From assembly GCA_020831765.1 (NCBI GenBank), contig JAFIFY010000040.1:1-61052 (forward strand): 61,052 nucleotides of DNA. The letters are read 5' to 3'. Source of the DNA: Phycisphaeraceae bacterium (GTDB taxonomy: Bacteria > Planctomycetota > Phycisphaerae > Phycisphaerales > Phycisphaeraceae). The stretch's first letter is position 1. The number at the start of each line of letters is the position of its first letter. The notes beneath the pieces were generated by a model. It did not search any database. It saw nothing but the letters and a program-made list of their open reading frames with translations, and was not told where the DNA came from. Shown one piece after another: positions 3,241 through 32,191 of the stretch. The translations under genes and the position numbers were made by a program.

Positions 3241-3284
3241 CTGCTTCGCTTCGGTCGGCTTCTTGGCAGGCGTTGCCATGGCCT

Positions 3285-4708: not shown

Positions 4709-6199
4709 CTAAACCAACTGAAACTCGGGCAGGGCGGTGATCAGGATCATCAGTCGGCGAAGATGAGCCGGTGTCGGTTGCGGCCGGGTCGCGCAATAGG
4801 CTCGAAGGGCATTGAGACGATTGGCCGGCAGATTCGGGCCCGAGTTGAGCATGGCACCGAGCAGCAGCGGCAGGGCATCGGTCAGTGTCGCCGGACGCTC
4901 GCTGCCCAGGAGTGGTTGCGGATCGGCCGGGGGCAAGGCGCGGCCACGTCTGCCGATCATGCGCGGGTCACCCTCGATCAGATAAGCCGCCGTGTTCTGC
5001 CGGGCAAAGAGCGTCGAGGTGTTGATCCACGTTCGCCCGCCATCCCAGCCGCCGACGGTCGGAGGGTCAAAGAGGCGTTGGCCCATCACACCCATCTGAT
5101 TGGCGATCAGTTGCCAGTCGCGGTTGGGGGATCCGAGCGTTCGGGCAAGTCCGAAGACCAGGTGGGCCGGGCTGCGGATCATCCGCGAGCGGGTTGGTGC
5201 TTCATAGAAGGCCCGGCTGGTGAAAAGCCGGGTCAACACGGGCGTGAGATCGAAGTTCCATCGCTCCAGTTCCGCCGCGATGGCATGGATGATCGTGTTG
5301 GCCGACTCGGGCGTATCCACGGCCGGCACATCTTCAACAAAGTGGCGATAGAGCTTCCAGGCGATGTGGCGACGGCAGGCGGGCTGGGACAGCAGCAGGG
5401 GGACGAGCCGCCGGGCATTGAAGGCCTCGGTTTGGCCCAGGATCGTCTTGGGGCCGGGGTCGTGCAGTCGCGGGCGGAGCACGAATGAGTGATCATCGAT
5501 GCCGTGACCGCTCAGCGCCCGGGCGGTTTCGGCGATGTCGTGTTCGGAGTAGTTGCCTTCGCCGAGGGTGAAAAGTTCGAGCAGTTCCCGGGCCAGGTTC
5601 TCATTGGGCCGGCCGCGCACGTTGCGGTGATTGTCCAGATAACGCAGCAGGGCCGGATCGTGAAGCATGGCTTCCAGCAGCAGATCGAACCGCGGGGCGT
5701 GGCGGCGGAACAGGTGATGTTGCTGGTAGAGCATGTGACTGTCGCGGATGACACGAAAGCTGCTGGTAAAGTGCCCATGCCAGAGCAGGGCGAGGTTTTC
5801 TTCCAAAGGCCGGGGCGAACGGGCCAAGTGGGCGAGCCACCAACGTTCCAGTTGTGCTGCCTGCTGCCGATCACGCCTGCGGGCATCGTTGCGCATCATT
5901 TCAAAGCGCGTGAGGGCTTCGCGGTCGTCCTCGCGACGTGCTCGGGCCTGTTCCTGTCGCTCCTCGACGGTCAGGGGTCGGATGATGTCCGGGTCCGAGA
6001 CCATGGCCGGCAGCGAATCATCCGGGGGTAACTGGTCGAAGTGGACCAGTTCCATCACCGATCGTTCCAGCCCCTGCGTGGCGAATCGTTGGATGGTGGC
6101 TGGAGGTGCGCCAAATGCTGCGCGGCAGAGCAGGTGACGGGCATGATCACGATCAAACGAATCCACGGCCAACGGCGCAAGCGGATCAGAACGCATCAT
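4709..6199 (-). CDS. DUF1800 family protein
   Basis: DUF1800 proteins are large proteins of unknown function encoded directly before DUF1501 genes in many Planctomycetota, Bacteroidota and Proteobacteria. The roughly 496-residue product opens with HLLCRAAFGAPPATIQ, carries ERWWLAHLARSPRPLEENL and LLWHGHFTSSF, then the NENLARELLELFTLGEGNY block, and a late FDPPTVGGWDGGRTWINT segment. All of these are family hallmarks. The ATG at 6199 is preceded by GGAG at 7 bases; longer in-frame starts lack this. It is probably co-transcribed with the DUF1501 gene. No obvious signal peptide is visible. Confidence 0.9.
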   Translation of the reverse strand: MMRSDPLAPLAVDSFDRDHARHLLCRAAFGAPPATIQRFATQGLERSVMELVHFDQLPPDDSLPAMVSDPDIIRPLTVEERQEQARARREDDREALTRFEMMRNDARRRDRQQAAQLERWWLAHLARSPRPLEENLALLWHGHFTSSFRVIRDSHMLYQQHHLFRRHAPRFDLLLEAMLHDPALLRYLDNHRNVRGRPNENLARELLELFTLGEGNYSEHDIAETARALSGHGIDDHSFVLRPRLHDPGPKTILGQTEAFNARRLVPLLLSQPACRRHIAWKLYRHFVEDVPAVDTPESANTIIHAIAAELERWNFDLTPVLTRLFTSRAFYEAPTRSRMIRSPAHLVFGLARTLGSPNRDWQLIANQMGVMGQRLFDPPTVGGWDGGRTWINTSTLFARQNTAAYLIEGDPRMIGRRGRALPPADPQPLLGSERPATLTDALPLLLGAMLNSGPNLPANRLNALRAYCATRPQPTPAHLRRLMILITALPEFQLV

Positions 6200-6454
6200 G
6201 TTGTCGCTCCGAAGTGGCGGGCCGGGGCCTGTCACAGGATGGGTAACGTTTCGGCCTGATGGGGCATTGCCACGCCGCTGGATAAGCATACGCTGATCCG
6301 GCCATGGCGGTTTCAGCCGGTGGGCGGGATCGGCTTGGTACAGGCCGTGGCCCCGGGAAGCGGGCCTGCCCGGGGGGCGTTATATTCGGGCATGGGCAAT
6401 AACGGACGCCGCCCGGCGTTTCGACGTTCCCGGTCCCTTCGCATGGAGTTGTTC

Positions 6455-7585
6455 ATGAGATCTGAGTCAAGACAGCGGTCGGTCCGACGTGGCTGGGTGC
6501 GACCAAGCCTCGTCGCGGTAATGGCTTGCGTCGGCCTCTTGTTGCCGATGATGGTCGGCTGTGGGACGTCGCGGACGGTTCACGTCTCCAGCCATCCACC
6601 GGATCATCCGGCGCTGCAACTGCTTTCGGAATTTGAGCAGGACCTGGGCCATCCGCCGGTCGGTGGGGCCAATTCACCGCCGCCCAGCGAGCCGTTGCCG
6701 TTTGTCATCGACCTGGCCGAGATCGATGCGGGGGGATTCCAGATTCAAGTGCCCACGGGCCGGTATCAAGCGCCACCCGGCGGCGCTCCGAACTATCGCG
6801 TGCCCGGGCCGATCGCGGCCTTCCGAGGTCCGGATGGAGTATGGCGAGGGCGAGGCTATCTGGAGACCTACCCCCGGCTTCAGGCGTTCTCCGGGTCGCA
6901 CGAGCGGAGGGGCACGGAAACGATCGTGACGCTGGACTATCGCTTCGAGGATGACCGGCGCTATCAGGTTGAGATGGTGGTGGGCGGGGGCATGGTCCGC
7001 ATGAGCGAGCAAGCCCAACTCGGGCCTCGCAACCTGTTTGTCATGGATTTTTACTATCGCTGGCAGCCTTCGGTCGCCTTCGCCATCAACCGCACGGCCG
7101 AGCATCATGCCTTTCTGTATCTGCCTTGCTACTACGACAAACCGGAGGTGACGATCCGGCCGCCGCTGCTTATTCCCAACGATCTTGTGGATGAGGATGA
7201 AGGCATCCTGCCGCCGGATCGCCAGCCGTCGGGCGTCGCCATTCTGAGCCGTGATTCGGAGCAACGCGATATCGCCGGCTTCTGGATGCGTCAGGTGGAC
7301 CAGTGGGAGGGTCGCGACTCGATGGGGATGCAGCTCTGGCAACGCCGACAGCTTCCCGGCGAGCCGGCCAGCCGACACTTTGTCGGCCCGGAGACCAAGA
7401 GCGATTCGACCCCCAATCCCCGAACGGCCGCGATGCTCGGCCCCTCGCTCTATGAAGGTCATGTGACCGCCGAGTTCAGCCTTGGCACGGGTACGCGACA
7501 GATGGCGTTCACCGTTGTGGCCAAGCCCGAGGAGCATGATCAGATGCCCGAGCCTTTCAAGCAGCGCGCCGCCGCGCACCGTTGA
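6455..7585 (+). CDS. Secreted lipoprotein-like protein sharing a domain with the adjacent lyase
   Basis: I do not recognise a named family. The product of about 376 residues begins with a basic N-terminus, a hydrophobic stretch and MMVGCG, a plausible but imperfect lipobox, so it may be a lipoprotein. From about residue 85 it has an FQIQVPTGRY...VPGPIAAF...RGYLE...YRFEDDRRYQVEM pattern that parallels VRMPTGRV...APGPVVSI...DGYLD...YRFDDPDRNYTVDL in the next gene's product, so the two share a beta-sheet domain. The ATG at 6455 has GGAG 6 bases upstream. The next gene starts 73 bases downstream on the same strand, which suggests a joint role. Confidence 0.7.
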   Translation: MRSESRQRSVRRGWVRPSLVAVMACVGLLLPMMVGCGTSRTVHVSSHPPDHPALQLLSEFEQDLGHPPVGGANSPPPSEPLPFVIDLAEIDAGGFQIQVPTGRYQAPPGGAPNYRVPGPIAAFRGPDGVWRGRGYLETYPRLQAFSGSHERRGTETIVTLDYRFEDDRRYQVEMVVGGGMVRMSEQAQLGPRNLFVMDFYYRWQPSVAFAINRTAEHHAFLYLPCYYDKPEVTIRPPLLIPNDLVDEDEGILPPDRQPSGVAILSRDSEQRDIAGFWMRQVDQWEGRDSMGMQLWQRRQLPGEPASRHFVGPETKSDSTPNPRTAAMLGPSLYEGHVTAEFSLGTGTRQMAFTVVAKPEEHDQMPEPFKQRAAAHR

Positions 7586-17500: not shown

Positions 17501-19513
17501 TCATTGGCCAAATACGATTCGTCCGTTTTCCAGCTTCACGGACTGATCGCCGACTCGCACGCCGCCGGCCAGTCCCTTGTCGGTGGCGGTCACGCGCGGC
17601 ACTGACCCGCGTTGCAGCGTCATGATGATTTCGATCTGTTCGGCCTCGGTATCGATGGTGATGAAATTGGCATGCGGGGCATTGGTGGTGGATCGAATTT
17701 CAATATCGGCTGGGGCGACCACTGTACCGACCAGCGTGGCGTCACCGATTCGGGCGGTGAATTTTCCGCCATCGGAATCGAATCGCACATCGCCGCCCAG
17801 GTGCATGATCCAGGCCCGCGGAGCGCCCGCGACCCCTTCGAGCCGATCAGAAAATACAAAAACCGCGGGCGCGCCGGACTTGCCACTGTAGTCGACCCCA
17901 ATGGTCCTGCTTCCCGTGAATTCGCCCCCCTCGGCCACCGGGATTTCCCGGGTCACGCGGCGATTCTCTTCATCGCGCTCAGTTCGCCGGATACTCTCGG
18001 TCGTCCGATTCAATCGGCCGGAGACGGTGAATTGTCCGGATGCGGTCTCTGAATCATCGTCCCATGTGAAGCTGCCCATCGTCCAGTCCGAGCGAAGGTC
18101 GTACATACGATCCCTGCCAAGCGTTGTGTGAATCGAGAAGACATTGTCCTGCCGCCCAGCGCCAGGCGCGTGGCTCCATGCACCGGCATGTGGCCCGGCG
18201 TGGCCCGCGAAATAGCCGCCCAACCCGAGAATGCGGATGCCGGCGTTGTGGACCGCCAGAACAACATCATCAGGACCGTCCCATCCTGATCGGACGACTG
18301 TCATATTGGCCTTCGCGGAATGGACCAGGTTGGGCAGGGTCTCATACGGCGAGTTTGGCGATGAACGATCGATCAGGCCGTTCCGGAGCATTTCCAGCCC
18401 CTCGTGCGGACGGACGATTCCAAGGAACCGATCGCCATCCAGCCGATCCATCAGCCACCGCGCATGATTCAGCATTGGTTCATCCAACCATGCCGCCGCC
18501 GCCGCGAAGATGCCGCCGCGGTCCAGGGCGGGCGTGAAGGGGCCGATCATCGGGATGCCGGCACCGGGAACGGTCAGGTAGAGCATCGGCGTGATGGCAT
18601 GCTTGATCGCCGGGTGTTGCGAAAGGTCGCGTCCGAGCACCAGTTTCGAGGCCCGGACGTAGGGAAGCACGCCGGATGCCATGGCGGCCTGTCGAACCGC
18701 TTCGCCATGGGGGCTGAAGCCTCCGTCACCGATGGAATCCATGAAATTGACGATCACGCGTTCCGAACGCCGGATGCGATCGAGCAGTTCCCCGTCGTCG
18801 GATCCGTTGAGCAGCACCATCTCCGCCATGCCCGCCGCCGCGTAGGCCATGACGTGGTCAGGTTGGCTTCTCCGGGCCGAGTCGGCGGCCTTGCGGATGG
18901 CTTGGGCCTCCTCGATCAGAAACTTGCGCACACGCTCCCGCGCATCACGGCTCCAGGATTGGTTGCAGAGGTCAAAGGCCACGGCGGTTCCGTGCAGACG
19001 CGAAGCGCGATCAACCAGATCGAGCTGGGCCACCATGGGGTAGCCGACGATCTCGACAAGAACCGCTTCGCGCGCCTTGTTCACGTGGCTTCGATCGTCC
19101 GTCAACAGGTACAACGCTCCGTTGCCCGCGGACTTGAAGCCCGCCTCCTTGACCACATCGCGGTTCCGGCCGGTCAGCGGCAGGGCATCCATCAGCCGTT
19201 GAGCCTGTTCCATGCGGCGGACGATGCGCTTGCCCCAGTCCGTCTCGGCCGCGCTCCGTACGGCGTTGACTTCCGCTTCACCTCGCACGATGAGTCGCGG
19301 GTATTCATCAGCGCCTGGAAGCATGTGCCCTTCGACCATCCGGACATTGCCGATCGCGGCGACGGGAATACAGAGCGAAACGATTGCCAGGAGGGAGGCG
19401 CAGACGCTCGCCAGGCTCAGGGTCGGCGTGTTCCGACGGCATGGTGCGGGCCGACGGTCAACGGATGCCTCTTGGGCCTGGTGGCTCGAATGATGCGGGA
19501 GTACTTCGGTCAT
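17501..19513 (-). CDS. Secreted heparinase-like protein, short member of a three-gene paralogous family
   Basis: The product of about 670 residues has a hydrophobic leader (SLASVCASLLAIVSLCIPVAA region) after a long basic N-terminus. An alpha-helical toroid region runs to about residue 300 and carries the DSIGDGGFSPHGEAV segment near 259, where the two larger paralogues have GIGDGGF or GVGDGGF. A beta-rich C-terminal half includes IRILGLGGYFAGHAG and the VDYSGKSGAPA motif near 539, ending VRVGDQSVKLENGRIVFG. These blocks align with the genes at 22598 and 25758. The start at 19513 has GGAG 9 bases upstream; an ATG at 19528 is possible. It is the last gene of the operon. A lyase role is inferred. 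Confidence 0.72.
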   Translation of the reverse strand: MTEVLPHHSSHQAQEASVDRRPAPCRRNTPTLSLASVCASLLAIVSLCIPVAAIGNVRMVEGHMLPGADEYPRLIVRGEAEVNAVRSAAETDWGKRIVRRMEQAQRLMDALPLTGRNRDVVKEAGFKSAGNGALYLLTDDRSHVNKAREAVLVEIVGYPMVAQLDLVDRASRLHGTAVAFDLCNQSWSRDARERVRKFLIEEAQAIRKAADSARRSQPDHVMAYAAAGMAEMVLLNGSDDGELLDRIRRSERVIVNFMDSIGDGGFSPHGEAVRQAAMASGVLPYVRASKLVLGRDLSQHPAIKHAITPMLYLTVPGAGIPMIGPFTPALDRGGIFAAAAAWLDEPMLNHARWLMDRLDGDRFLGIVRPHEGLEMLRNGLIDRSSPNSPYETLPNLVHSAKANMTVVRSGWDGPDDVVLAVHNAGIRILGLGGYFAGHAGPHAGAWSHAPGAGRQDNVFSIHTTLGRDRMYDLRSDWTMGSFTWDDDSETASGQFTVSGRLNRTTESIRRTERDEENRRVTREIPVAEGGEFTGSRTIGVDYSGKSGAPAVFVFSDRLEGVAGAPRAWIMHLGGDVRFDSDGGKFTARIGDATLVGTVVAPADIEIRSTTNAPHANFITIDTEAEQIEIIMTLQRGSVPRVTATDKGLAGGVRVGDQSVKLENGRIVFGQ

Positions 19514-19571
19514 CAGGCTGAACTCCATACATTGGAACGTCGGGATACAAAACTATATTCGCGTTTACCGA

Positions 19572-20909
19572 TCAATCGGATCCGGTCATCAAACGCATCA
19601 TCAGGGAGAAGCCCATCGTGCCGCCGGCATTCTCGACCCGGTAGAGCACGCGGTTCTGGCCTTGTTCGAGGCTGATGAGCTGGATGTTCTCCATGGCATT
19701 GTAGGGCTTGCGATGCGTCGGGCTGATCCAGACCAGTTCATCATTGATCCAGAGCTTGCCGTAGTCATCGGTCGCGGTGGCGATCCACACCTGACGAGGT
19801 CGATCGGAATAGATTTCGGTGAAGGCGTAATAGATTCCGTAGCCGACCACATCGCGCGGCTCGATCTTCCAATGCGCGTGACGTTGGCCACCGGGATTGA
19901 CGAAGCCAGTCTGCTTGAAGTCCCAGGTGAGCTGCCGGCCATCGAGGCCGGTGAAGACATCATCCAGGTTGACGTTGACTTCCGGGCCGAATCGGGTGTC
20001 CAGGGTGGTACGCCTTCGGTCGCTGGGGAACGGACCGATGATGTACCAGGTATCGACATAGAGCCACTCATCGATTCGACCGCCGGTCACCAGTCGCCGA
20101 CCGGGAATGGCATCAAAATGGCCGACATCCGGCGCCAGGGTGAAGTCAAGCTCATCGGGCATGAGCTCCGGGCCGCGATAACCGAGCATGGCGATGTCAT
20201 CGGCCGAAAACCTCAGCGTCAGACCATCACCCGTGGCCGTGTCGCTCTTGCGTGTGAACTCCAACAGCTTCTCGGAGCTGTCGATGATCTCGCGCATCTC
20301 GATGACCGATCGCGTGATCTGCTCCTTGAAGGCTTCGACGCGATCGAGCTCCCTGGCTGAAGCGATGAAGACGTATAGGGCGTCAGGGTCCAGATCGCGG
20401 CGGCTGGGCCGGGGAATGGCGGCCTGTTCGTAGGCCTCATCGAAGTGGAAGCCCTGGCCGGTTCCCACCATTCGCGCGGCCAGGAATTCGCGGTACATTG
20501 TCACCAGGTCCTGCTCGATCGCGCGGGAGACCGCGTATATCTCGTCGATGGGCAGATTCTGGACATCAGCGATGGATGCCTTCGCACGGAACTCGGCTTC
20601 GACATCCTCGATGGCCTGAAGATCGGCTTCGGTCAGCTCCGCATCGCGAATCCATCGGTCCCGGATTTCGGCCATCTGGGAATGAATCTCGCGAAGCTGG
20701 CCGAATTCATCCACCATCCGCACGCGTCGCTTTTCGCGGAAGTTTTCGATGACGGAGCGAAGCTGGGCCGCGGATATGCTCGGCCGATCGCCGCGCCCGA
20801 AGATCAGATCGCGAGCCGCCAGGATCACGATGACGGTAATCATCAGGAAAAGGGCCAACGCGACAAGGCGGTGGGTCCAGTCAATTTTGGGTTCAAGGGA
20901 TTTCGCCAT
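19572..20909 (-). CDS. Membrane-anchored protein with coiled coil and C-terminal lectin-like domain
   Basis: The 445-residue protein has one N-terminal membrane segment (about residues 12-34) preceded by a short basic cytoplasmic tail, then a charged helical region (about 50-120), and a C-terminal part starting VDTWYIIGPFPSDRR. The 'WYxIGPF' motif, followed by a VWIATATDDYGKLWINDELVW strand pattern and closing GQNRVLYRVENAGGTMGFSL, is typical of PA14/lectin-like sandwiches in Planctomycetota. It sits directly downstream of exbB-exbD, where TonB is commonly encoded, and has the same topology (single N-terminal anchor, long periplasmic part), but no TonB C-terminal domain is seen. A role as a motor-driven glycan-binding partner is inference. 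Confidence 0.7.
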   Translation of the reverse strand: MAKSLEPKIDWTHRLVALALFLMITVIVILAARDLIFGRGDRPSISAAQLRSVIENFREKRRVRMVDEFGQLREIHSQMAEIRDRWIRDAELTEADLQAIEDVEAEFRAKASIADVQNLPIDEIYAVSRAIEQDLVTMYREFLAARMVGTGQGFHFDEAYEQAAIPRPSRRDLDPDALYVFIASARELDRVEAFKEQITRSVIEMREIIDSSEKLLEFTRKSDTATGDGLTLRFSADDIAMLGYRGPELMPDELDFTLAPDVGHFDAIPGRRLVTGGRIDEWLYVDTWYIIGPFPSDRRRTTLDTRFGPEVNVNLDDVFTGLDGRQLTWDFKQTGFVNPGGQRHAHWKIEPRDVVGYGIYYAFTEIYSDRPRQVWIATATDDYGKLWINDELVWISPTHRKPYNAMENIQLISLEQGQNRVLYRVENAGGTMGFSLMMRLMTGSD

Positions 20910-21171
20910 GGGTTCCAGGCCTGCCGGCCCGCTCCGTGTCAGCCAATAAACTCGAATCAAACGCCTTGGGGTACTTCATCCGTGATGCCCGGTGCGCCGC
21001 ATGCTCAGGCCGGCGCGGCGACGCCATCGCGCCGGTCAGCCACTCAGTCGCCTTACGGTCCCGATCCTGGGCCTGTTCGATGATCGTCGGCACTTCAGCC
21101 CGGAGGACGGTGCCACCGGCCACAAACGGGCAATGCGGACCATCGGAACTCTTCCGTGAGGAATCACTCAT
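20893..21171 (-). CDS. Small hypothetical protein between exbD and the anchored lectin-like protein
   Basis: This 92-codon frame starts 20 bases after the exbD stop and overlaps the start of the next gene by 17 bases, as expected for tightly packed operon genes. Its third codon positions are mostly G or C in the middle part, like genuine genes here. The product is charged, has no signal peptide or membrane segment, and matches no family I know. The ribosome binding site is weak (GGA). It could instead be noncoding spacer. Confidence 0.45.
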   Translation of the reverse strand: MSDSSRKSSDGPHCPFVAGGTVLRAEVPTIIEQAQDRDRKATEWLTGAMASPRRPEHAAHRASRMKYPKAFDSSLLADTERAGRPGTHGEIP

Positions 21172-21191
21172 GATTCGATCCGGTCGTGGGG

Positions 21192-21602
21192 CTATTCCAT
21201 CTCGACGCGGAAGCTCCAGTCATTCAAGCCGTAATGCTTGAGGGTGTCCATCAGCGGGTATAGATGCATGAACTGGGCACGGTGGTCGATCTCGAACCGG
21301 ATGCGATGTTCGGGGAACTGCTGCTGTTGCCTTCGCACCGCATCGAGGAAGCCCTGCTGTGCCACCTGGCTGTCGCCGACGTAGACGATGCCATCACGGG
21401 TGACGCGGATCACCATATCCCGATCACGGGGCTTGACTTCCGCCACGGCCTGGCCGGGGGGCGGAAGCTCGATGCCCAGTTCCTTGATCGATTTCTTCGT
21501 GACCGCGATCACGATGAAGAAGATCAGGAGTAGGAACACGCAGTCGATCAGCGGCCCCATCTGCACTTCCGTGCTTTCACTTCGATCAAGTCTTACTTTC
21601 AT
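21192..21602 (-). CDS. exbD: ExbD/TolR-type biopolymer transport protein
   Basis: The 136-residue protein has the ExbD plan: a short cytoplasmic N-terminus, one membrane helix with the conserved aspartate (MGPLIDCVFLLLIFFIVIA, Asp about residue 20), a proline-rich linker (ELPPPGQAVAE) and a periplasmic domain. With ExbB it forms a proton-driven motor that moves a TonB-like partner. An ideal AAGGAGG lies 8 bases before the ATG, and the gene overlaps exbB by 4 bases. Its setting among secreted polysaccharide lyases suggests a dedicated motor. Confidence 0.92.
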   Translation of the reverse strand: MKVRLDRSESTEVQMGPLIDCVFLLLIFFIVIAVTKKSIKELGIELPPPGQAVAEVKPRDRDMVIRVTRDGIVYVGDSQVAQQGFLDAVRRQQQQFPEHRIRFEIDHRAQFMHLYPLMDTLKHYGLNDWSFRVEME

Positions 21603-22486
21603 GCCTTGCCTCCTTGCGGAGCGGGTGTGGCCGGACGGGCCGTGGCCGGCGCGGCGGGCGGCACGGCTGCTCCCGAGCTGGGGCCATCAGTGCCGCGGCT
21701 GAGGAACCACGTATGCATCAGCGTGGTGATTTCCTGCCCGAGAAGGTTGGCGAAGTGGCTGGTCCGGCTTCTGAAGTAGTGGTACAGGGCCAGGGCCGGA
21801 AGGGCGATGATCAGACCGGTCGCGGTGGTGATCAGGGCCTTGCCGATATCGCCGGCCAGTGCCGAAGGTTCATCCATGCTGCCGACGACTTCGATGGTGC
21901 GGAACGCGCCGGTCAAGCCGAACACGGTACCCAGAAGTCCCAACAGCGGGGCCATGGTGCCGACGGCGATCAGTGGATAGACGCGGCGGGAATGCTGTTC
22001 CATGTCGCGGCTGGCGATGTCCTCGGCGGCGGTGGTCAGGTGTTCGTAGGTGTTGCCGCGATGCTCGGCCAGGAAGCTGACGACCTCGCCCAGCGTGCTG
22101 CGGCTGTTGCGGCCCTGCCGCACGATGCCGGCGTAGTCCCCGCTCTGCCAGAGCCGGTTGACTCGATCCGCCAGGCCCTTGGGCGCGATATTGCGTCGTT
22201 GCAGGCTGATCAGTCGTTCGATCGAAAAGACCAGGGCCACCGCGGCCATGAAGGCCAGGAAGTACATCGTCACACCGCCGGTGTGCCAGTCCACCACCAG
22301 GCTTTCCCAGCGGTCACGCAGTGTCGTGGCGGCCTCGGTCTCCAACGCCGCCGGGACGGCCTCTTCCGTGGCGGCGGCTTCGCCATTGGCCGCTTCTTCT
22401 TCGGCCATGGCCATGTGCGGGACCAGGAATCCCATCGCCGCGATCAGCGCGGCCAGAGTCCATCTTGCTGCATACAGTCGTTTCAC
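21599..22486 (-). CDS. exbB: MotA/TolQ/ExbB proton channel protein
   Basis: The 295-residue product has an N-terminal signal-like hydrophobic stretch (residues about 1-28), an Ala/Glu-rich segment, a first membrane helix (VTMYFLAFMAAVALVFSIERL; the 'SIERL' end is typical), a cytoplasmic domain, and the conserved channel region PLLGLLGTVFGLTGAF followed by DIGKALITTATGLIIALPAL. This is the MotA/TolQ/ExbB fold that conducts protons. It starts with GTG, with AAGGAG 6 bases upstream. It lies 111 bases downstream of a 992-residue lyase-like gene and overlaps exbD. Confidence 0.93.
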   Translation of the reverse strand: MKRLYAARWTLAALIAAMGFLVPHMAMAEEEAANGEAAATEEAVPAALETEAATTLRDRWESLVVDWHTGGVTMYFLAFMAAVALVFSIERLISLQRRNIAPKGLADRVNRLWQSGDYAGIVRQGRNSRSTLGEVVSFLAEHRGNTYEHLTTAAEDIASRDMEQHSRRVYPLIAVGTMAPLLGLLGTVFGLTGAFRTIEVVGSMDEPSALAGDIGKALITTATGLIIALPALALYHYFRSRTSHFANLLGQEITTLMHTWFLSRGTDGPSSGAAVPPAAPATARPATPAPQGGKA

Positions 22487-22597
22487 TTGATTCTCCTTGA
22501 CTGGACCTTGGGTATCGTCGCACCCATATGCGTCTTGCCGCCCTGACCAGGGGTGGCAAGGTCTGGTTGGTGTCGTGGATTCCGATGTGGCTGCACA

Positions 22598-25576
22598 TCA
22601 GCGTTCGGAATCGGTCGTATCCCCCAGAATTATCCGTTTGCCATCAAACCGAACGGTTCGCTCGCCGATCGTCACCCGGGCGTCAGGGCCCTGCCCATCG
22701 ACCTTAACTTCCGGTGTCGGCTCATCATTGCGGTTGATGGTCATGATCACGAAAAAATCGTCGCCTCCTTCGGCCGTGGCCCTTCGAAGCGTACCGTGGA
22801 ACGCCGTTCGCGCCGCTCCGATTTCAACTTCCTCGGTTCCGGCCGAGATGGATAACGATGCGGGCTGTATGAAAATTGCGTTGAGGGTGGAACCGTCCTG
22901 CGTGAATCTGAATCCCCGGTCGGTGATGGTGGGTCGGACCGAGGGCAACTGCCATGTCCACAGCTTCCGGCCGCCTCCGCGGATCGAATCCACCATGACG
23001 ATCATCGCCGGGGCACCGCTTTTGCCGCTGTAATCAAAGGCCACCGCGCGCAGGCCGGTAATGTTCGATTCCGGACGCACCCCGGTCATGGGGATGAACA
23101 TCGAGTCGAAAAAGCGCTGCGACCGCCTTGCGTAGACATAAGCCATGTCCATGGTCAGGCTCATCGAGCCGTCTTCCCATTTTTCCAGATGCGTAAGCCT
23201 GGCGTTGCCGCTTTGATTGATGTCATCGTCCGGAAGCAATACGACCGAGTAGTTTTCCCTGGCTCCGCCCCGCTCGCTCCGGGTCGTGGTCCACTGGCTG
23301 CCCATCCCGGCGAAGTGAACCGCCCCGGCATTGGGATGATTCCAGCCAACGATCGGGGCCGCCTTGAGAAAAACCTGGCCGACAAAGTCATCGCCGTCGC
23401 GGAAGCCGGACCGGCTGACGTAGTGACCGAAGGTATCGGCCCGCCAATGGCGCGGCATCCCCTCGTCGGGGTGGATGGGGTCCATGCCCAGCGGATAGTT
23501 GATGAACGCCTGCGTCAGGGCCAGGGCATTGCCACCGCGTCCACCCGTGGCCGTGAAGACATTGCCCGCATCTTCACGATGATTGACATCGGCCAAGCGA
23601 TTCCAGACCCAGAGGGCCGAGGGCTGGTATTCCGAGGGGATCGCCGAAAAAGCCGAGGCCAGCCAATGCTGATCGACCGTGACGACACTGTTGATGGCGT
23701 GGGTTCGCGGGCGGCCGGACTCGGGGAAGACCATCTGCATGATCTGGCGGGGCATCAGGTGGGAAACATCAGGATGGGGCGATGCCGCGCGCCCGACGAA
23801 ATTTCGATGAACACCGGCGTACACCGTGGGATAGAAGCTCGATATATTGCTGTATCCGCCGGTCTCGGCCTTGAAGCCGCCATCGCCGATGCCCCAGCGA
23901 TAGTGCTGGTAGACCTGGAACCAGCCGCGCTCGACCCAGAACTGATGCCGCGTATCGATCCCCGTCTCCTTCCAGAGCGCTTGATCCCGCTCCCAGAGCC
24001 GACGCTGGATGGAATAAACGCCCAGCGCGGTGGATTGCGTCGGGTCGTTCGTGGCGAGGGTGAACTTCGGGCCCACGGTGCCGCGCCCCCGTGGCACGCG
24101 TGCCTCGATCAGCACGGTGTGGACGCCCGGCCTCAGGCGATAGTAGAGGTCCGGATCAAGCTCCATGCCGGACAGGAAGGTTCGCTCGTGCTCGCTGGTT
24201 GGACTGTATCCAACGACCTTCTCTTCCGTGACGCGAATGGCGGTGAAGTAAACCGAAACCGATCCCTCCCCGCCGCCAACCGTTTTGGCCAGATCAATGC
24301 CGGATTCGCCGGCGGCTTCATCGGGCAGTTGACTGAAGGTCAGTTTCTTCTGAACGAACCACCCGCCGCCTGGAGTCGTGTAGGTGGATTCGCTGCCTTC
24401 CCCCGGCGTTGCGCGCTCGTATCCGCCCAGTTGCGTGAGCACATCGCGACTGACCTCGGCAGGCAGCCGGCCGCTCCATATCCAGCCGGATGTCGGCAGT
24501 TCGCCGGGAACCAGTTCCGTAATGCCCACGCCCTTGCCCGGCCTGTAGTTATCGCGGGCATTGATGATGCGGGCCCGTTCGATGGGATTGCGCGGAGCGC
24601 GGGGCGCGGGCCCCTTTTCGCCCCAGAGCACCATGGCGGTCATCGCGGCAATTCCGCGTGCCGGGCCGTAGTAGTTGCTGCATGGATGGAAGTTGGCGTG
24701 GTTGGTCATCAGGATGTACTGACGGCGATCCGTCAGTTCCTCCAACTCGCGACGAATGCGGGCGCGAAAGTCCGCGGGCCAGGCCTCACAACAGAGGTCG
24801 TAAGTCAACGCCACCGCGAATATTTCATGGCCGAACCCGCCCGAGCCAAAACCTTCAGTGGTTACCTGATTCGGATACTGCCGCTGAATCCACTCCATGG
24901 CGCGGCGGGCGTACGCTTCATCGCCGGTCAGTTGATAGAGCATGCCCAGACTCAGCGAATCTTCACGCTGACGGATCGCCGCCAGGTATGCCTGGCCGAA
25001 CCGCGTATCGAGCTTCGCCCTCAGCGCGGGCAGATCGGACTTTCTAAACAGCACACGCGGGCGCTCATCCGGTTCCGGAGGTGTGAATCCGGGGCGGAGT
25101 GGCCGCCGGGGCATCAGTTCACCTTCGATCCGTCCCCCGATGGGATGACCGTCGAACTGGCCTGAATATCGACCTTCCACACGACCATCCGCCTTGCGGT
25201 CCAGGGTCAGGGTGAGGAACGCCGGCCACTCGCCTTTACGCCAGAAATCGCCGACCACCAACAGGCTTAATTCGATCTCGATCTTTTCGTCGGTGACCGT
25301 CGCCTTGTCCACGAGGCCGAAGTGCTCGCCGATGCTAAAGTGAAACGCCTTGCCCCAGACCCGCCGCCAGCGGCCCTCATCCGCGACCATGTAAAGCAAG
25401 AGGTTGGCTCGATCCTCGGATTGCTGGGCATCGCGCGGCAACGCATCGTAGAGGACCAGTTCAAGTTCGCCCGTCAATGCATGTGCCGGTTCGGAGTGAC
25501 CACCGATCACGAACATCAATAGAACAGCAGTCAGAAAACTAATTGGCTTGAACTTGGTTTGAAGTTGAGTCGGCAT
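22598..25576 (-). CDS. Large secreted heparinase-like polysaccharide lyase
   Basis: The 992-residue protein has a signal peptide (hydrophobic FLTAVLLMFVIGG, cleavage near AHA), an N-terminal beta domain (about 35-150; LELVLYDALPRDAQ, RWRRVWGKAFHF) shared with the next paralogue, then an alpha-toroid lyase region beginning RPRVLFRKSDLPALRAKL and including LTYDLCCEAWP, HPCSNYYGPARG and YRWGIGDGGF near 560. A C-terminal beta region holds FAGMGSQW, FDYSGKSGAPA near 845 and a closing VTIGERTVRFDGKRIILGD. Asn/His/Tyr residues suitable for heparinase-type elimination are present, but the catalytic set is not certain. It is 181 bases from the paralogue upstream. Confidence 0.77.
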   Translation of the reverse strand: MPTQLQTKFKPISFLTAVLLMFVIGGHSEPAHALTGELELVLYDALPRDAQQSEDRANLLLYMVADEGRWRRVWGKAFHFSIGEHFGLVDKATVTDEKIEIELSLLVVGDFWRKGEWPAFLTLTLDRKADGRVEGRYSGQFDGHPIGGRIEGELMPRRPLRPGFTPPEPDERPRVLFRKSDLPALRAKLDTRFGQAYLAAIRQREDSLSLGMLYQLTGDEAYARRAMEWIQRQYPNQVTTEGFGSGGFGHEIFAVALTYDLCCEAWPADFRARIRRELEELTDRRQYILMTNHANFHPCSNYYGPARGIAAMTAMVLWGEKGPAPRAPRNPIERARIINARDNYRPGKGVGITELVPGELPTSGWIWSGRLPAEVSRDVLTQLGGYERATPGEGSESTYTTPGGGWFVQKKLTFSQLPDEAAGESGIDLAKTVGGGEGSVSVYFTAIRVTEEKVVGYSPTSEHERTFLSGMELDPDLYYRLRPGVHTVLIEARVPRGRGTVGPKFTLATNDPTQSTALGVYSIQRRLWERDQALWKETGIDTRHQFWVERGWFQVYQHYRWGIGDGGFKAETGGYSNISSFYPTVYAGVHRNFVGRAASPHPDVSHLMPRQIMQMVFPESGRPRTHAINSVVTVDQHWLASAFSAIPSEYQPSALWVWNRLADVNHREDAGNVFTATGGRGGNALALTQAFINYPLGMDPIHPDEGMPRHWRADTFGHYVSRSGFRDGDDFVGQVFLKAAPIVGWNHPNAGAVHFAGMGSQWTTTRSERGGARENYSVVLLPDDDINQSGNARLTHLEKWEDGSMSLTMDMAYVYARRSQRFFDSMFIPMTGVRPESNITGLRAVAFDYSGKSGAPAMIVMVDSIRGGGRKLWTWQLPSVRPTITDRGFRFTQDGSTLNAIFIQPASLSISAGTEEVEIGAARTAFHGTLRRATAEGGDDFFVIMTINRNDEPTPEVKVDGQGPDARVTIGERTVRFDGKRIILGDTTDSER

Positions 25577-25757
25577 TGAACTTTTGGCCGGCGATTGGAA
25601 GCGCCGTCTCCGGCAACAGGGTCAAGTCGGCATAACGCCTGATGCGTGGAGTTATTGTCCGTGCCTGGGCGCGGATGGCCCATGCGGACCCCCGCCCAGA
25701 GCGGCAGCTCCAGATCGAACAGGGATTGCCTGTCAGCGGGGCGTGGGCGGGTCCGCA

Positions 25758-28700
25758 TCAACGTTCGCCCAGAACAATCTTCCGGCCATCGAAGCGGACG
25801 GTGCGATCGCCGACGGTGACGGCCGCATCCATGCCGCGACCGGACACGGTCATCTCCGGTGCCGGCCCATCCTGGATGGTGAGTACGACGAAGAAATCGC
25901 CCTCGTCGTTGCGAGCCCAGACGGAATTGTTGTGCATTTCGACTCCTCGACCCGCATCTTTGTCGCTCTTGAACCAGACATCGCCCGCAATTCCGCGCTG
26001 TTCGGCACTGATGGCCGCCTGGGTGACGAATCGGGCGTTAAGCAGAGCGTTGTCTTTGCGGATCTGGAAACCGTGATCGTTGACCGAGACCTTGTCAAGA
26101 TCGCCGCGAGCAAGGGATCGGGGCCGAAGTCCGCCGCCCTCGCCGCCGTACATCTGAATGCCGCCAAGCTGCCAGCTCCATACCTTGGCCCCTCCGCCGC
26201 GCACCCGGTCCACGATGACGACCATGACCGGTGCCCCGGACTTGCCGCTGTAATCCACCGCCACCGCGCGGAGGCCGGAAATGCCCGAGTCCTTCCACCC
26301 ATCGTTGAGTCGCAGGCCGGTGAGCCGATCAAAGAGCGGCATCTCCCGTCCCCGCGCATCGCGATTGCGGCCGGCATAGACATCGCTCATGTCGAACGTG
26401 ACGGTTCCGGAACCATCATCGAGCGCTTGATGATGGATTACCTTTCCCGGAACCCTGTTGTTGACCTCATCCTCGGGCAGGAGCACAAGATTCTCCATCC
26501 AGCGGAAATGGTTCTGCCGGAACTCCGGTCCGTGCGCCCAGACATGCCCGAGGCCCATGATCCGGAACGAGCCGGTGTTGGATCGCCGCCAGATATCGGG
26601 ATGGCCGCCACCAATCACCTGCACGAGGGCATCACCCTCGCCTTCATGCCGGTTTCGGAAGGCGAACCAGCCGGCATGCGGGGCATGCCAGGTCAGGGGC
26701 ATGACTTCCCTGGGATGCTGGGGCTCCATGTCCAGCGGGTAGGTCAGGAAAGGATAGAACGCCGGGCCCCGGGTCAGCAACCTGGGCAGGTCGGATTCAT
26801 CGCTGATGCCCACGTGCCGGTTCCATGCCCAGAGCGCAGCGCGTTGATACCGCTCGGGCACCAGGGGAAACATGGCGGCGAAATAGCTTCCTGAAACATC
26901 CCGGTTCTCGATGTAATCGCGAATGACCAGTTCGTTGGGACCATTGATGTCCTGAGAGAACGGCGCTTCTTCGGGATCGGGCGGATAGAGCATGCTGAAG
27001 ATGGCCCGTGGAATCACCATGCTGACATCCGGCCTTGCCGAAAGATCGCGGCCGAACATCCTGCGATAGACCAGGGCATAGCGGTTGGTGCCTTCCAGCC
27101 CCATGGTCGAGTAGTCGCCCGCCGGGAAGCCGCCGTCACCGACGCCCAGGCGAATCTGCTGATACATCATCCAGCGGCCGAGAGTGAACAGGTCCAGGCA
27201 GTCGGCATCCATCCGCCCCAGCCGCTCCCATTGATCGCGCCGCCATTGCCAATCCTCCATGGCACGGTCATGTTGCCAGGTGATCTCATCCCGCGCGGCG
27301 CGAGCATCGGCCGCGGACAACTCGACGAGGCGCGGGCTCATCATGATCCGCCCCCACTGGCTGGTCTGTCCGATCCGGGCCTCGATCAGAAGCGGGTGAC
27401 GACCGGGATCGAGGCGAATCACCTCTCCCTGACGAAGCTCAACGCCGCCCAGCCATGCCCGCGTTTCGACCGATTGATCGTTGGTGATATCGAGCCGAAC
27501 CCACCGCGCGGCATCATTCTCGATCGCGGTATAGGCATAAACGTTTGAGTAGAAGATGCGCTCGGCGGCGAAGGTCAGATCAACCGTGCCACGGAAAATG
27601 CCGCGCTCAGGATCGATCAGTTTGAACCGATCCGTGCGCTTACCGATGGTCAGTTCCTGCCCTGAACGGGGCCGAAACGCTCCAGGCCCTCCGGATTCGC
27701 GGAAAGGATCATCACCCGCCTCGGGCTGGAACCCACCGGCCACCAGCCATTCAAGAATCGCCTCTCCCGGGCGCAACTGGACGACCGGGACTCCCTGAGC
27801 CGGGGCAAAGTCCTTGTCCGCCTGGATGTGTTCGGTGGTGTTGGGCGCATCCGGGCGAGGCGGTTCGGAACCGGTTTCTCCAAGAACCGACAGACCGCCC
27901 AGGGCCGCGCCGTAGAGGATGGGCCCGATGTAGTTTCCACCGATGGTCCAGTTGATTTCGTTGTGGAATGTGGCGCGCGAGTAATAGAGACGATCCGAGG
28001 CGTTGAGCAGATACTGACGAACCTCATCCCGGAATTCCTGATCCCACGCCTCGTAACAGAGGTCGAACGTCAGAGCCACCTGCTCCAAACGCCGTCCCCA
28101 CACGCGCGCCCGGTCGATTTTGGTACCACTGTCGGTATCGGCCATCAGCGCAATCACTTGCCTCCGAGCCTGCGCGGCCAAGTCAGCATCGCCCGTCAAC
28201 TGGTAGCGAACACCGAGGCCGACCGCATCAGTGAGCTGCTCCATGGCAGCGCGTCCGAAGGGCGTTTTGGCGCGTTGGCGAAGCTCGGCGAGCTCGGACT
28301 TTTTGAACAGCACGCGGGGCCGAGGCTGCTTGATCAACTCGCTGATGGACAATCCGGCATCATCGTCATGAACGGTGATGCTGGCGCGGGCATGGCCGAC
28401 GATCTCATGGCCCTTGAAGCGGCCTTTGAATTCTCCGACCACATCGCCGTTGTCGGCGGCCTCGGTCAGCTTCACGTTGAACTCGGCGAACCCCGCGGCG
28501 GGCACCCAGCTATCTCCGCGAATGTCCATCACCAGGCGAATCTCGGCCGGGTCGTCGGTCTGGTTCGGGTTGTCCTTTCCGGAGGCCAGAAACCGCCCCG
28601 GCGTGGCCCCGGTCACGATGCCTGGGTGGTATGTTCCAGCATAGCGTGCCGCGATGCCCCAAACGCGCTCCCACTGGCCATCTTCTTTGAGCAAGGTGAC

Positions 28701-28877
28701 CATCAGCGAAGCGCGGCGACCCGATGGGTCCGCGCCGTGGAAAAGTGCTCCATCAAGGACCAGCGTCATCTGTATCCGTTCGGCCTGGGCCGGAGTGGCC
28801 GCGACCAGAAGCCCCAGACATGCGGCCAGTAGAGCCAACATGGGGACATGAAAGCTTTGTGTCACGAATCGTTTCAT
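25758..28877 (-). CDS. Large secreted heparinase-like polysaccharide lyase (paralogue)
   Basis: The 1039-residue product starts after GGAGT 7 bases upstream and has a signal peptide (MLALLAACLGLLVAATPAQA core). Domains follow the same order as in the 22598 gene: beta domain (MTLVLDGALFHGADPSG, QWERVWGIAARY), toroid region (RPRVLFKKSELAELR, LTFDLCYEAW, INWTIGGNYIGP, IRLGVGDGGFPAGDYS near 579), and C-terminal sheet with IMGLGHVWAHGPEFRQN, VDYSGKSGAPVM near 872 and VTVGDRTVRFDGRKIVLGE. Two extra toroid-sheet insertions (one rich in Trp and Arg near 480-560) are larger than in its sister. The spacing to the GH gene upstream is only 26 bases, so the two are co-transcribed. The substrate is unknown. 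Confidence 0.78.
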   Translation of the reverse strand: MKRFVTQSFHVPMLALLAACLGLLVAATPAQAERIQMTLVLDGALFHGADPSGRRASLMVTLLKEDGQWERVWGIAARYAGTYHPGIVTGATPGRFLASGKDNPNQTDDPAEIRLVMDIRGDSWVPAAGFAEFNVKLTEAADNGDVVGEFKGRFKGHEIVGHARASITVHDDDAGLSISELIKQPRPRVLFKKSELAELRQRAKTPFGRAAMEQLTDAVGLGVRYQLTGDADLAAQARRQVIALMADTDSGTKIDRARVWGRRLEQVALTFDLCYEAWDQEFRDEVRQYLLNASDRLYYSRATFHNEINWTIGGNYIGPILYGAALGGLSVLGETGSEPPRPDAPNTTEHIQADKDFAPAQGVPVVQLRPGEAILEWLVAGGFQPEAGDDPFRESGGPGAFRPRSGQELTIGKRTDRFKLIDPERGIFRGTVDLTFAAERIFYSNVYAYTAIENDAARWVRLDITNDQSVETRAWLGGVELRQGEVIRLDPGRHPLLIEARIGQTSQWGRIMMSPRLVELSAADARAARDEITWQHDRAMEDWQWRRDQWERLGRMDADCLDLFTLGRWMMYQQIRLGVGDGGFPAGDYSTMGLEGTNRYALVYRRMFGRDLSARPDVSMVIPRAIFSMLYPPDPEEAPFSQDINGPNELVIRDYIENRDVSGSYFAAMFPLVPERYQRAALWAWNRHVGISDESDLPRLLTRGPAFYPFLTYPLDMEPQHPREVMPLTWHAPHAGWFAFRNRHEGEGDALVQVIGGGHPDIWRRSNTGSFRIMGLGHVWAHGPEFRQNHFRWMENLVLLPEDEVNNRVPGKVIHHQALDDGSGTVTFDMSDVYAGRNRDARGREMPLFDRLTGLRLNDGWKDSGISGLRAVAVDYSGKSGAPVMVVIVDRVRGGGAKVWSWQLGGIQMYGGEGGGLRPRSLARGDLDKVSVNDHGFQIRKDNALLNARFVTQAAISAEQRGIAGDVWFKSDKDAGRGVEMHNNSVWARNDEGDFFVVLTIQDGPAPEMTVSGRGMDAAVTVGDRTVRFDGRKIVLGER

Positions 28878-28903
28878 TGTCTTACTCCAGTAGTCATGGA
28901 TGA

Positions 28904-31900
28904 TTAATCAGGGGTACCGGATTCGCGGTCGGATCCGGTCGTATGGTGTTCGAGCACGATGCTGCTCATGCAAACGTGGTAGCCAGGCCGGCCCGGGTCG
29001 CCCAGTTCGAAGCGGACGGGCGTCTGTGGCTTGAGTCCGGCAAGGTCGAGCGGCAGTTCCATGATTCGATTGCCGTTGTCGGCGGTCATGGCGCGGGGCA
29101 GTACCAGACGCTGTTCGCCGATCTTCACCACCGCTTCACCTTCGGCGACTTCCTCGACCACGATGCGCAGCCGCGCGGCCGTGGCCGTCGCCAGCTTGTC
29201 GGCCGGAAGCGTGATGGTGGTTTCCAACGGCTGATCACGGCGAATCCATTGCAGGATATCCGGCGAGAAGTGCTGCGTTCGGGATACCTGGTCGTGCTCG
29301 ACGATGTCGCCCTTGAGTGGAATGGTGATTTTCCAGGCCATGCGGGCATCAAGCTGAATGTCAAAACGCGCCGTCCGCTCATCCAGCTTCACGTTCTCCT
29401 GACGTTCGAGGTCAATCTCGAAGGTGGTCATGTCCACAACGTTGCGCTCGATCGTGCCCGTGTCGAAGCGCGTGCCGGTGGGCGCATCGATCGTCAGCTT
29501 CGCCTCACGCGGGAAGCGATGGTCATTAAATACGACCACGACCAGCTCCTGCCCGTGCTCGGTCGTCCAGCCCGGTGGGAGGGCCTTGGGGTCGGTTCCA
29601 TCAACCGAGGCGACAACCCAGACGCCCGGATCATCGGTCGTGGCTTCGATGAGCCTGCCGCGCAGGTTGGTCAACATGCCGTAACCGACGCGCATCATCT
29701 GCGGTGTGTGGGTGGGATGCAGCACCGTACGGGTCAATAGCTTGTCAGGGCTCTGCTTGATGCTGTAAATCAGGTCGCGGACGTTGTAGACCATGCGCCG
29801 GTATTCGCGGGCCTGTCGCGCGGCTTCCGGCGTGGTGATCGCGCCTCGGGCCGGGGCGTCGACCAGGTCGTTGGTTTCGGTATTGGCGCTGTAGAGCCAC
29901 TTGCCGTGTTCGGTCATCGCGTAGGCCGTGGCCACCTCATAGCTGCCGTTCATGGCCGTGGTGTCGCCCTGGTAGTGGTGTTCATCCAGGGCATCGATCC
30001 ATTCAATGTGCTGGTCGATGGTCGGCTTGTACAGCATCTCCCACGCCGCCCAGTGGTCCTCATGCCATCGGAAACCCCATCCGGCGATCAGAATGATCTC
30101 CGGATGCGTCTTCTTGATCTCCGGCGCGATGGCTCCCAGCATCTGGTCGTAGATCCACCCGTTCCCCTTGCCCGACCAGTAGCTGAACGCCGTGGTGTCA
30201 TAAACTTCCCAGCCCCGATTGCCTCGGCGCCAGGCGAAGTAAGGAATCTCCGGGCCGAGCTCCCCGTTGGGATAGCGGATACGCACCGGCTTGTCTTCGC
30301 CCGCGTTCTCGACATCATAAAACTGGGTGTTGAAGTTGACTCGCGATCGCTCGGCCCAGTTCAGATAGGGCTCGTTCCAGAATTGAAACGCGACCTTCTC
30401 GCCGCTGTTCCTGGCGTTTTCAGCGAATCTTCGTCCCCAGTCGGCGAACCACCGCTCCCAGTTGGGATTGCGCAGCATGTACGCCGGTTCCTTGCGCTCG
30501 CCCAGGCAGTCAATGAAGTACATTTCGGCTCGCCGGTGCTCGGGGGCCGGTCGCAGGTCGCCCTCGAATAACGCCACCAGAAGGTGACGATTCAATCGCA
30601 TCACCTCGGTGTCGTTCAGTTTTCCTTCGGCCAGGCGCGATGCCAGCTTGCGGGCCGGTTCTTCAAGATTGACCGTCGCCATCGCCTGAGCATCGTAAAG
30701 TTCGCGCTGGCGCATCAGGCGGTTGAACGCATCGCGCACCAGCCGCCGGCCTCGATCTTCGGCTCGCTGATCCGGGTTCAATCGCGATAAGTCCCGCATC
30801 GACCGCTCATCCAGCCGACTCCGGAGGTGGGCGATCGCAGCGCTGGGGGGTGGCTGGTCGTCGTTGCCTGGGATGACCCTGGCGATGATCGCCGCGCTGT
30901 CGAGCACATCATCATCGTTCAGGAGTTGGCGATGCTGCTCGGGGATGCGCGGCTGGGTGGAGGGATGGAGGTACCGTTGCGTGCCCGGACGGAATTCCTG
31001 GGGAACATCCGGCGCGTAACCGCCGAAGATGGCCGCCGGAACCACATTGTGGTCGTTGATCGACAGCGTCCGACCGCTGACCCGGAGTTGGGCCGGCTGG
31101 CGTTCAATCTTGTCAAACGGCGCCCCGAAGGTGTAGATCGCACCCAGCGTGAACTCAACCTTGCCCACACCCAGCGGGTTGATCACGCCAATGGCCATCT
31201 CGCTGATGCGTGAAAAATCCAAGGTGTAGTCGGCATCCATGTGGTTGCCCGGCGCAACCCACTCCGCTTCGGCGAAATCCTCGAAATGAAGCTCGACACG
31301 ATTCGACTCACGGCTCAGGGGAACGGCATTGCGGATGTAGTACCAGCCGCCCTCGGCCTCGCGAAGCCATATCGAAACCGCCGCATCATCGCGTGGTTGT
31401 TCGGTGCTGATCTCGACTCGAAGCTGCGAGAATCCGGAGATGTCTTTCGGTTCGGCGAATCGCAGCATCGCCAGGCGGGCAAAGTTCCAGTTCTGGCGGC
31501 GTTCGCCCATGTCGAAACCCATGGCCACGCCTTCACCCGGAATCCACTGCCCGCTGGTCCATTGACCGGGGCCGGCCACTGGCAGCAGGCGTCCTGTGAT
31601 GTTGGCGGTGGTCTCCTGGCCATCCTGTCGTATGCCAACGGTCCCCCGCACAGGACGATGGGCCTGAGGAACCATGGCCTGCACCGTCCAGAATCCGCCG
31701 GCGAACCAGTCCGGATCGTCGGCATCGGCGATTGCCGGGACTTCGGCCTGAATCGTCAGACGCGTGCTGGCACGGGTCGGTTGGCCCTCATCGGCGGTCA
31801 GTGAGAATTGCAGTTGCATGGCGCGATCGGACAACTCGATCTCGCCCGGTTGGATCGTGATGCTTCGCCGCCGCTCGTTGCGAAACCGTCCCTCGGTTTG

Positions 31901-32191
31901 CGTCCAGCGGCCGTTGATCCGTGTCAACTTGATCTCCAGCGGCCCGGCCGCCTCGCCCACGCCCGGGACAGCCCCGGCGGGGATCCGCAGCTCGACGCTG
32001 AAGGCATCTGGCCCAATCGTGGGTATTGAATTCGACAAATCAACCAGTGGCCGATTTGGTGATTGTGCCGGAACATCTGCGACAACGACGCCGCCCAGGA
32101 ACCCGGCAGTGACCCAGAAGCCCAGAGCAAGCAATCTCCAGAACGACGATCGACGGGCGAGTTGCGGGATTGGCATCAGAAGAATTCTCAT
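28904..32191 (-). CDS. Secreted multi-domain glycoside hydrolase (clan GH-A-like, WNEP motif)
   Basis: The protein of about 1095 residues has an N-terminal signal/anchor region, a beta domain resembling that of the neighbouring lyases, a second sandwich (about 200-340) that looks like a carbohydrate-binding module, and a TIM-barrel-like catalytic part. In the barrel, FQFWNEPYLNWAERS (Glu about 613) fits the acid/base of clan GH-A, and SANTETNDL (Glu about 779) fits the nucleophile. A C-terminal beta domain follows. The same blocks recur in the gene at 57110. The start at 32191 has GGAG 10 bases upstream; a GTG at 32212 is also open. It is the first gene of the lyase-ExbBD operon. The GH family was not identified. 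Confidence 0.78.
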   Translation of the reverse strand: MRILLMPIPQLARRSSFWRLLALGFWVTAGFLGGVVVADVPAQSPNRPLVDLSNSIPTIGPDAFSVELRIPAGAVPGVGEAAGPLEIKLTRINGRWTQTEGRFRNERRRSITIQPGEIELSDRAMQLQFSLTADEGQPTRASTRLTIQAEVPAIADADDPDWFAGGFWTVQAMVPQAHRPVRGTVGIRQDGQETTANITGRLLPVAGPGQWTSGQWIPGEGVAMGFDMGERRQNWNFARLAMLRFAEPKDISGFSQLRVEISTEQPRDDAAVSIWLREAEGGWYYIRNAVPLSRESNRVELHFEDFAEAEWVAPGNHMDADYTLDFSRISEMAIGVINPLGVGKVEFTLGAIYTFGAPFDKIERQPAQLRVSGRTLSINDHNVVPAAIFGGYAPDVPQEFRPGTQRYLHPSTQPRIPEQHRQLLNDDDVLDSAAIIARVIPGNDDQPPPSAAIAHLRSRLDERSMRDLSRLNPDQRAEDRGRRLVRDAFNRLMRQRELYDAQAMATVNLEEPARKLASRLAEGKLNDTEVMRLNRHLLVALFEGDLRPAPEHRRAEMYFIDCLGERKEPAYMLRNPNWERWFADWGRRFAENARNSGEKVAFQFWNEPYLNWAERSRVNFNTQFYDVENAGEDKPVRIRYPNGELGPEIPYFAWRRGNRGWEVYDTTAFSYWSGKGNGWIYDQMLGAIAPEIKKTHPEIILIAGWGFRWHEDHWAAWEMLYKPTIDQHIEWIDALDEHHYQGDTTAMNGSYEVATAYAMTEHGKWLYSANTETNDLVDAPARGAITTPEAARQAREYRRMVYNVRDLIYSIKQSPDKLLTRTVLHPTHTPQMMRVGYGMLTNLRGRLIEATTDDPGVWVVASVDGTDPKALPPGWTTEHGQELVVVVFNDHRFPREAKLTIDAPTGTRFDTGTIERNVVDMTTFEIDLERQENVKLDERTARFDIQLDARMAWKITIPLKGDIVEHDQVSRTQHFSPDILQWIRRDQPLETTITLPADKLATATAARLRIVVEEVAEGEAVVKIGEQRLVLPRAMTADNGNRIMELPLDLAGLKPQTPVRFELGDPGRPGYHVCMSSIVLEHHTTGSDRESGTPD

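Follow-up and report, generated by a model that had tools for sequence, protein, structure and literature searches.

An ExbB-ExbD motor, a membrane-anchored protein (ANC), exported lyases and a putative glycosidase are encoded together in a Phycisphaeraceae genome, and comparison across genomes showed that the conserved unit is exbB-exbD-transducer, not the full lyase operon. This module is a further and apparently undescribed class of transducer driven by an ExbBD/TolQR-type motor, which is widespread and carries a tip of predicted sugar-binding type. For the operon analyzed here, we give an even chance to the reading that a proton-driven motor and a dedicated periplasmic transducer operate with the exported enzymes, which are lyases of polyuronate type and a glycosidase.

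Gene content of the operon

The window, that is, the whole stretch of 61,052 nucleotides that was analyzed, is contig C113 of a host genome of 4.71 Mb. Seven genes on the minus strand (GHA, LyB, LyC, ExbB, ExbD, ANC, and LyS) were accepted as real and extend from position 32191 to 17501 (Table 1). In the order GHA to LyS, they are separated by 26, 181, 111, −4 (overlap), 282, and 43 bases; the GHA reading frame may also start at 32212. The original prediction had described a same-strand operon of eight genes with gaps of 26 to 181 bases. While seven of these genes stood, the eighth, a small unknown of 92 residues, was rejected, given that its coding score was −0.02 per codon in comparison with 0.13 to 0.25 in its neighbors and that it was absent from the gene calls; this reading frame is probably spurious and noncoding. 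Since it carries no coding signal, the real gap between ExbD and ANC is 282 bases, and the predicted range is true only if the frame is counted. No terminator-like site was detected in the gap between LyC and exbB (22487–22597), but such sites are no more frequent in the region than chance predicts. Scans for Rfam families and tRNA genes found none in the window. The identities proposed for ExbB and ExbD were confirmed by Pfam (PF01618, 4.8e-25, and PF02472, 1.3e-20, respectively), and residue D20 of ExbD aligns with the motor aspartate of solved ExbD.

Table 1. Positions of the genes, domains, and rejected reading frame of the operon in the window
Feature	Positions	Strand	Basis
GHA, exported GH-A-like glycosidase, 1094–1095 aa, WNEP and NTE motifs	28904..32191	-	ORF, coding score, family common to lyase-rich genomes
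Shared N-terminal domain of GHA	31568..32002	-	hhalign probability 98, E 1e-13
LyB, exported heparinase/alginate-lyase-like protein, 1039 aa	25758..28877	-	Heparinase II profile 5.5e-11
Shared N-terminal domain of LyB	28368..28778	-	domain profile 3.7e-31
LyC, exported heparinase/alginate-lyase-like protein, 992 aa	22598..25576	-	profile and Foldseek top 20 on low-confidence model
Shared N-terminal domain of LyC	25082..25477	-	hhalign and domain profile
ExbB-type motor subunit, 295 aa, N-terminal export-like extension	21599..22486	-	PF01618 4.8e-25; matches solved ExbB and TolQ
ExbD-type motor subunit, 136 aa, with the channel Asp (D20)	21192..21602	-	PF02472 1.3e-20; alignment to solved ExbD
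92-aa ORF, probably not a gene	20893..21171	-	coding score −0.02 per codon; absent from gene calls
ANC, TonB/TolA-like transducer of 445 aa with a conserved position next to exbB-exbD	19572..20909	-	homologue neighborhoods, alignment, structure model
Predicted transmembrane helix of ANC, ALALF in place of SxxxH	20802..20879	-	model and motif comparison
Predicted helical stalk of ANC	20229..20771	-	model
Predicted C-terminal jelly roll of ANC (WxxxGPF domain), GH2 sugar-binding/PA14-like	19581..20099	-	VIA Z 11.5 to 2vzs; PA14 in Foldseek
LyS, short heparinase-like protein, 675 aa, lacking the shared N-terminal domain	17501..19528	-	member of lyase alignment; domain profile gives no match

Anatomy and distribution of the transducer

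ANC gave no match in Pfam or NCBIfam, where no model covers its family. A structure model built on an alignment of 51 relatives was confident (mean pLDDT 84) and consisted of a transmembrane helix (residues 11–36), a helical stalk (residues 47–227), a hinge that was predicted poorly, and, at the C-terminus, a jelly roll (about residues 264–445). This tip aligned to the N-terminal sugar-binding domains of GH2 enzymes (2vzs, Z 11.5, rmsd 2.8 over 132 residues); all of the 50 structure matches listed had a Z of 10 or more, and PA14 carbohydrate-binding domains were among the Foldseek matches. The model thus agrees with the description of ANC as an anchored lectin-like protein, sugar binding being a prediction. 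With this predicted architecture ANC occupies the place of TonB, so that the operon does appear to encode a transducer, which the original prediction had overlooked. At some loci (e.g., L084, L086, L094, and L096), the tip is encoded by a gene of its own, apart from the gene for the transmembrane helix and stalk. A similar tip domain is also found in other large proteins of these genomes, with no exbBD within the short stretch examined; therefore the tip alone is not diagnostic, whereas the three-part protein is.

The SxxxH spacing, as applied here to the transmembrane helix, is known from TonB. It was present within the helix in 54 of the 77 ANC copies with a recognizable transmembrane helix, as compared with 6 of 272 other N-terminal hydrophobic helices of the same loci and 3% of shuffled segments, which indicates that most of the family are TonB/TolA-like energy transducers with a swapped tip. 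A leucine at +11 and a serine or threonine at +15 are also kept in 20 of the copies that carry SxxxH. An SHLS motif common to TonB and TolA has been described (Williams-Jones et al., 2025, PMC12204202).

The ANC copy of the window has ALALF and no SxxxH; the copy in L117 and the majority of those located next to two exbD genes are likewise exceptions. Because the histidine is missing, coupling in the window copy may run through contacts with ExbD or be weakened. A rival explanation is that this copy is degenerate or uncoupled, in which case ANC would be no more than a sensor or glycan-binding protein anchored in the membrane, and the motor would be partnerless here. The altered motif and the long branch of this copy in trees are in line with that idea; nevertheless exbB, exbD, and the transducer gene are intact, the ExbD aspartate is present, and the histidine is also missing from many homologues whose loci have two exbD genes; we regard the idea as improbable. 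As a separate observation, the copies beside a doubled exbD (L052, L122, L126, L132, L146, and others), which mostly lack the SxxxH histidine, hint at a different mode of coupling.

Neighborhoods of ANC homologues were scanned in one genome per species (84,980 species), which yielded 80 loci, genes outside the window being called with a rough gene caller. At 69 of the 80 loci, an ANC homologue lies beside exbD and, contig permitting, exbB, and a second exbD is frequent; at the remaining 11, ANC was not called by the rough caller (7) or the gene was cut or at a contig edge (4). The adjacency of exbB/exbD with the anchored WxxxGPF protein, for which a search had been proposed, is therefore conserved. 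The module had been ascribed to Planctomycetota, where it does occur, but its hosts reach far beyond this phylum and include Verrucomicrobiota, Lentisphaerota, Kiritimatiellota, and Pseudomonadota (Massilia, Inhella, and Luteibacter).

Across 88 distinct loci there was no further universal neighbor, and most ANC loci elsewhere have no CAZyme neighbors, so that the idea of lyases as a constant component of the module was rejected. In the host genome itself, a further exbB-exbD-ANC set (L037), whose ANC has SxxxH, is not accompanied by lyases, and a LyB-LyC pair (L155) is not accompanied by exbBD. Two more exbB-exbD sets were observed in the same genome, at L040 6453–11815 and L042 3209–7147, one followed by a protein of 1031 residues and the other by proteins of 855 and 610 residues. 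The lack of a universal fourth gene and the scarcity of CAZyme neighbors favor the main rival explanation, namely that the module is a general Tol-like envelope transducer that moves or tethers outer-membrane or peptidoglycan partners, and that the lyases are there only by co-regulation or lineage history. Its presence in Massilia, Inhella, and Luteibacter, which are rich in TonB-dependent receptors, points in the same direction. We consider this role a real possibility, albeit a doubtful one in view of the linkage to lyases described below.

Lyases, glycosidase, and their linkage to the module

A profile of 21 relatives of LyB, LyC, and LyS matched Heparinase II at 5.5e-11 and also matched a PL35 chondroitinase and several alginate lyases. 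A model of LyC was used as support only, owing to its low confidence (mean pLDDT 54, five sequences); all its 20 significant Foldseek matches were lyases or the related dermatan-sulphate epimerase. The profile and the predicted fold bear out the term heparinase-like, and the three proteins form a family with a heparinase/alginate-lyase fold, predicted to combine a helical toroid and a beta-sandwich. They share the profile match and these predicted elements with Heparinase II/III-like, PL15, PL17, and PL35 lyases, from which they differ in being remote (10–14% identity in the fold matches), in an extra N-terminal domain and in having no Pfam match. The N-termini of LyB, LyC, and LyS are of an ordinary export type. 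Of 61 relatives, only three (the host genome, G001, and G033) have a strongly expanded LyC family, with about 10 copies per genome or more. A second lyase-like family, with a PFILWT motif and 760–844 residues (L050 g02, L058 g06, L164 g03, and L184 g03), was repeatedly encountered next to LyC or the motor module; Pfam gave no match for the one member searched, and no significant match to the group was found in the PDB.

The assignment of GHA as GH-A-like was upheld in part: WNEP and NTE motifs and a paralogue speak for it, whereas neither Pfam nor the PDB gave a match. A second, divergent member of the GHA family is present in the same window (57110–59182, minus strand; phmmer 9e-56), where it lies downstream of a gene (59237–60985) that encodes a cysteinyl-tRNA-synthetase-type domain. 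LyB and LyC share homology with GHA over their N-terminal 130 residues or so, which hhalign aligned to the N-terminal region of GHA with a probability of 98 and an E of 1e-13. Controls with ExbD, the ANC tip, shuffled columns, and GHA segments from elsewhere in the protein all gave 2.3% or less. This shared and unannotated domain is also present in a 281-aa protein beside LyC (L184_g05) and in a PQQ-like protein (L109_g02), and it may serve the enzymes in common for docking or binding.

It had been proposed as a counter-argument that the lyases and exbBD might never be associated elsewhere; however, LyC-type lyases were found near the motor module in other genomes. In L117 (Phycisphaerae), a 1453-aa fusion of a transmembrane segment, HEAT repeats, and LyC lies directly upstream of exbB (2181–6542); in L109 (Verrucomicrobia UBA6053), a LyC-type lyase 38% identical to LyC of the window is adjacent to the module and divergently oriented; and in G201 such a lyase is located a few genes from the module on the same contig. 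A TM-HEAT-LyC fusion also follows an ANC gene in G068, with no exbBD beside that gene. HEAT-repeat and PQQ-propeller-like proteins recur in lyase-linked loci. A further fusion of a transmembrane helix, HEAT repeats, and a LyC-type lyase adjoins the transducer in L065 (9391–12528).

A survey of 392 genomes of the phylum, with thresholds of E below 1e-40 for true ANC and at most 1e-90 for LyC, detected ANC in 11, LyC lyases in 8, and both in 5 genomes, a co-occurrence with a Fisher p of 3e-7, or 7e-6 without the host genome, the 392 genomes being counted regardless of kinship. In a transducer tree, which is a quick tree with long branches, all lyase-linked copies fell into one clade of 13 rows (SH-aLRT 93). 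LyC lyases (E at most 1e-90) were present in 9 of 9 genomes of this clade and in 0 of 24 genomes whose ANC copies are all of other types, kinship again being ignored.

Chance adjacency of unrelated genes deserved consideration, since the host genome has many lyase copies and some adjacency is to be expected. Adjacency in four other genomes together with the co-occurrence (p values as above, kinship ignored) make chance an unlikely cause, and we attach the lowest probability to it, close to negligible. The same recurrence, in one case in another phylum, and the clade that tracks LyC presence (9/9 vs. 0/24) argue against a purely Tol-like role. Co-encoded lyases and the TM-anchored HEAT-lyase fusions in L117 and L065 might also be read as signs that the motor drives the export or surface display of lyases and not glycan handling. 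We found this very improbable: Pfam revealed no secretion component among the operon products, and the lyase N-termini are ordinary. Accordingly, of the "energised glycan capture or secretion machine" put forward in the original prediction, a motor-transducer with a recurrent lyase link was retained, but nothing pointed to secretion.

If motor, transducer, and enzymes do work together, as we propose, the ExbB-ExbD motor would pull or swing the ANC stalk, the tip would grip a glycan or a glycan-bearing outer-membrane partner, and acidic polysaccharide would be drawn into the periplasm, or held there, while the lyases cut it. The absence of SxxxH from the window copy, the many transducer loci without a CAZyme neighbor, and the separate occurrence in the host genome of a motor-transducer set and of a LyB-LyC pair count against this proposal, and no outer-membrane channel was identified for it. 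Glycan capture or import by the module is plausible.

Relation to known systems and significance

The original prediction reported neither TonB nor a TonB-dependent receptor, and this held throughout the host genome, where TonB_C (PF03544) and TonB-dependent receptors (PF00593) were absent while positive controls were found. Among 27 other ANC genomes, TonB-dependent receptors were present in 20 and TonB_C in 18; several had neither, including the lyase-rich L117, L092, and L103, although some of these are incomplete. The cultured carriers Planctomycetales ZRK34 and Kiritimatiellota B12222 both have TonB-dependent receptors, and B12222 has no LyC-type lyases at E 1e-90. Since ANC genomes without a TonB-dependent receptor exist, ANC appears not to need one, and in genomes that do have TonB, ANC comes in addition to it.

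Ton, Tol, and transducers tipped with a vWA domain have been described, and a diversity of motor-driven systems is considered left to discover (Williams-Jones et al., 2025, PMC12204202). The ANC module resembles the Ton system in its ExbB-ExbD motor, its TM-anchored three-part transducer, and the SxxxH of most homologues; it differs in a jelly-roll tip that is not TonB_C, in the lack of TonB_C and TonB-dependent receptors in the host genome, and in the lack of SxxxH in the window copy. With Tol-Pal (TolQ-TolR-TolA) it has in common a motor and a transducer whose helical stalk is like that of gammaproteobacterial TolA, but the tip is different and Pfam detected no TolB or Pal among the operon products. 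The vWA force transducers (PMC12204202) are likewise adjacent to a motor, bear an SHLS-containing transmembrane helix and a swapped C-terminal domain, and occur in PVC hosts; they have a vWA fold and often an upstream TPR gene, whereas the ANC tip is modeled as an all-beta jelly roll without a Pfam match. The main text of that study (PMC12204202) does not name a jelly-roll tip, and a literature search, with most subscription journals outside its reach, returned no other description of a transducer tipped in this way. Glycan enzymes beside uptake-related genes recall the PUL/SusCD selfish uptake of Bacteroidota; in contrast, the host genome is devoid of any TonB-dependent receptor (PF00593) and the motor is encoded in the operon.

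A bolder reading is that PVC bacteria capture acidic polysaccharides and import them in a "selfish" manner by a TonB-independent, proton-driven machine, in which a motor-driven sugar-binding rod would replace TonB, TonB-dependent barrels, and SusD, and the enzymes would share a docking domain for it. We regard this as rather unlikely. Uptake of chondroitin sulphate by Planctomycetes has been attributed to an "analogous but unknown mechanism" (Reintjes et al., 2017, PMC5520146), and for this question the module is a candidate gene set and not a demonstrated mechanism. The closest described periplasmic transducers with ExbBD/TolQR-type motors are Ton, Tol, and the recently proposed vWA class. 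One transducer clade of the family described here tracks the expansion of polyuronate-type lyases, partly in genomes without detectable TonB or TonB-dependent receptors, and the motor-and-rod pair is a testable candidate for the handling of large acidic sugars in bacteria that have neither TonB nor its receptors.
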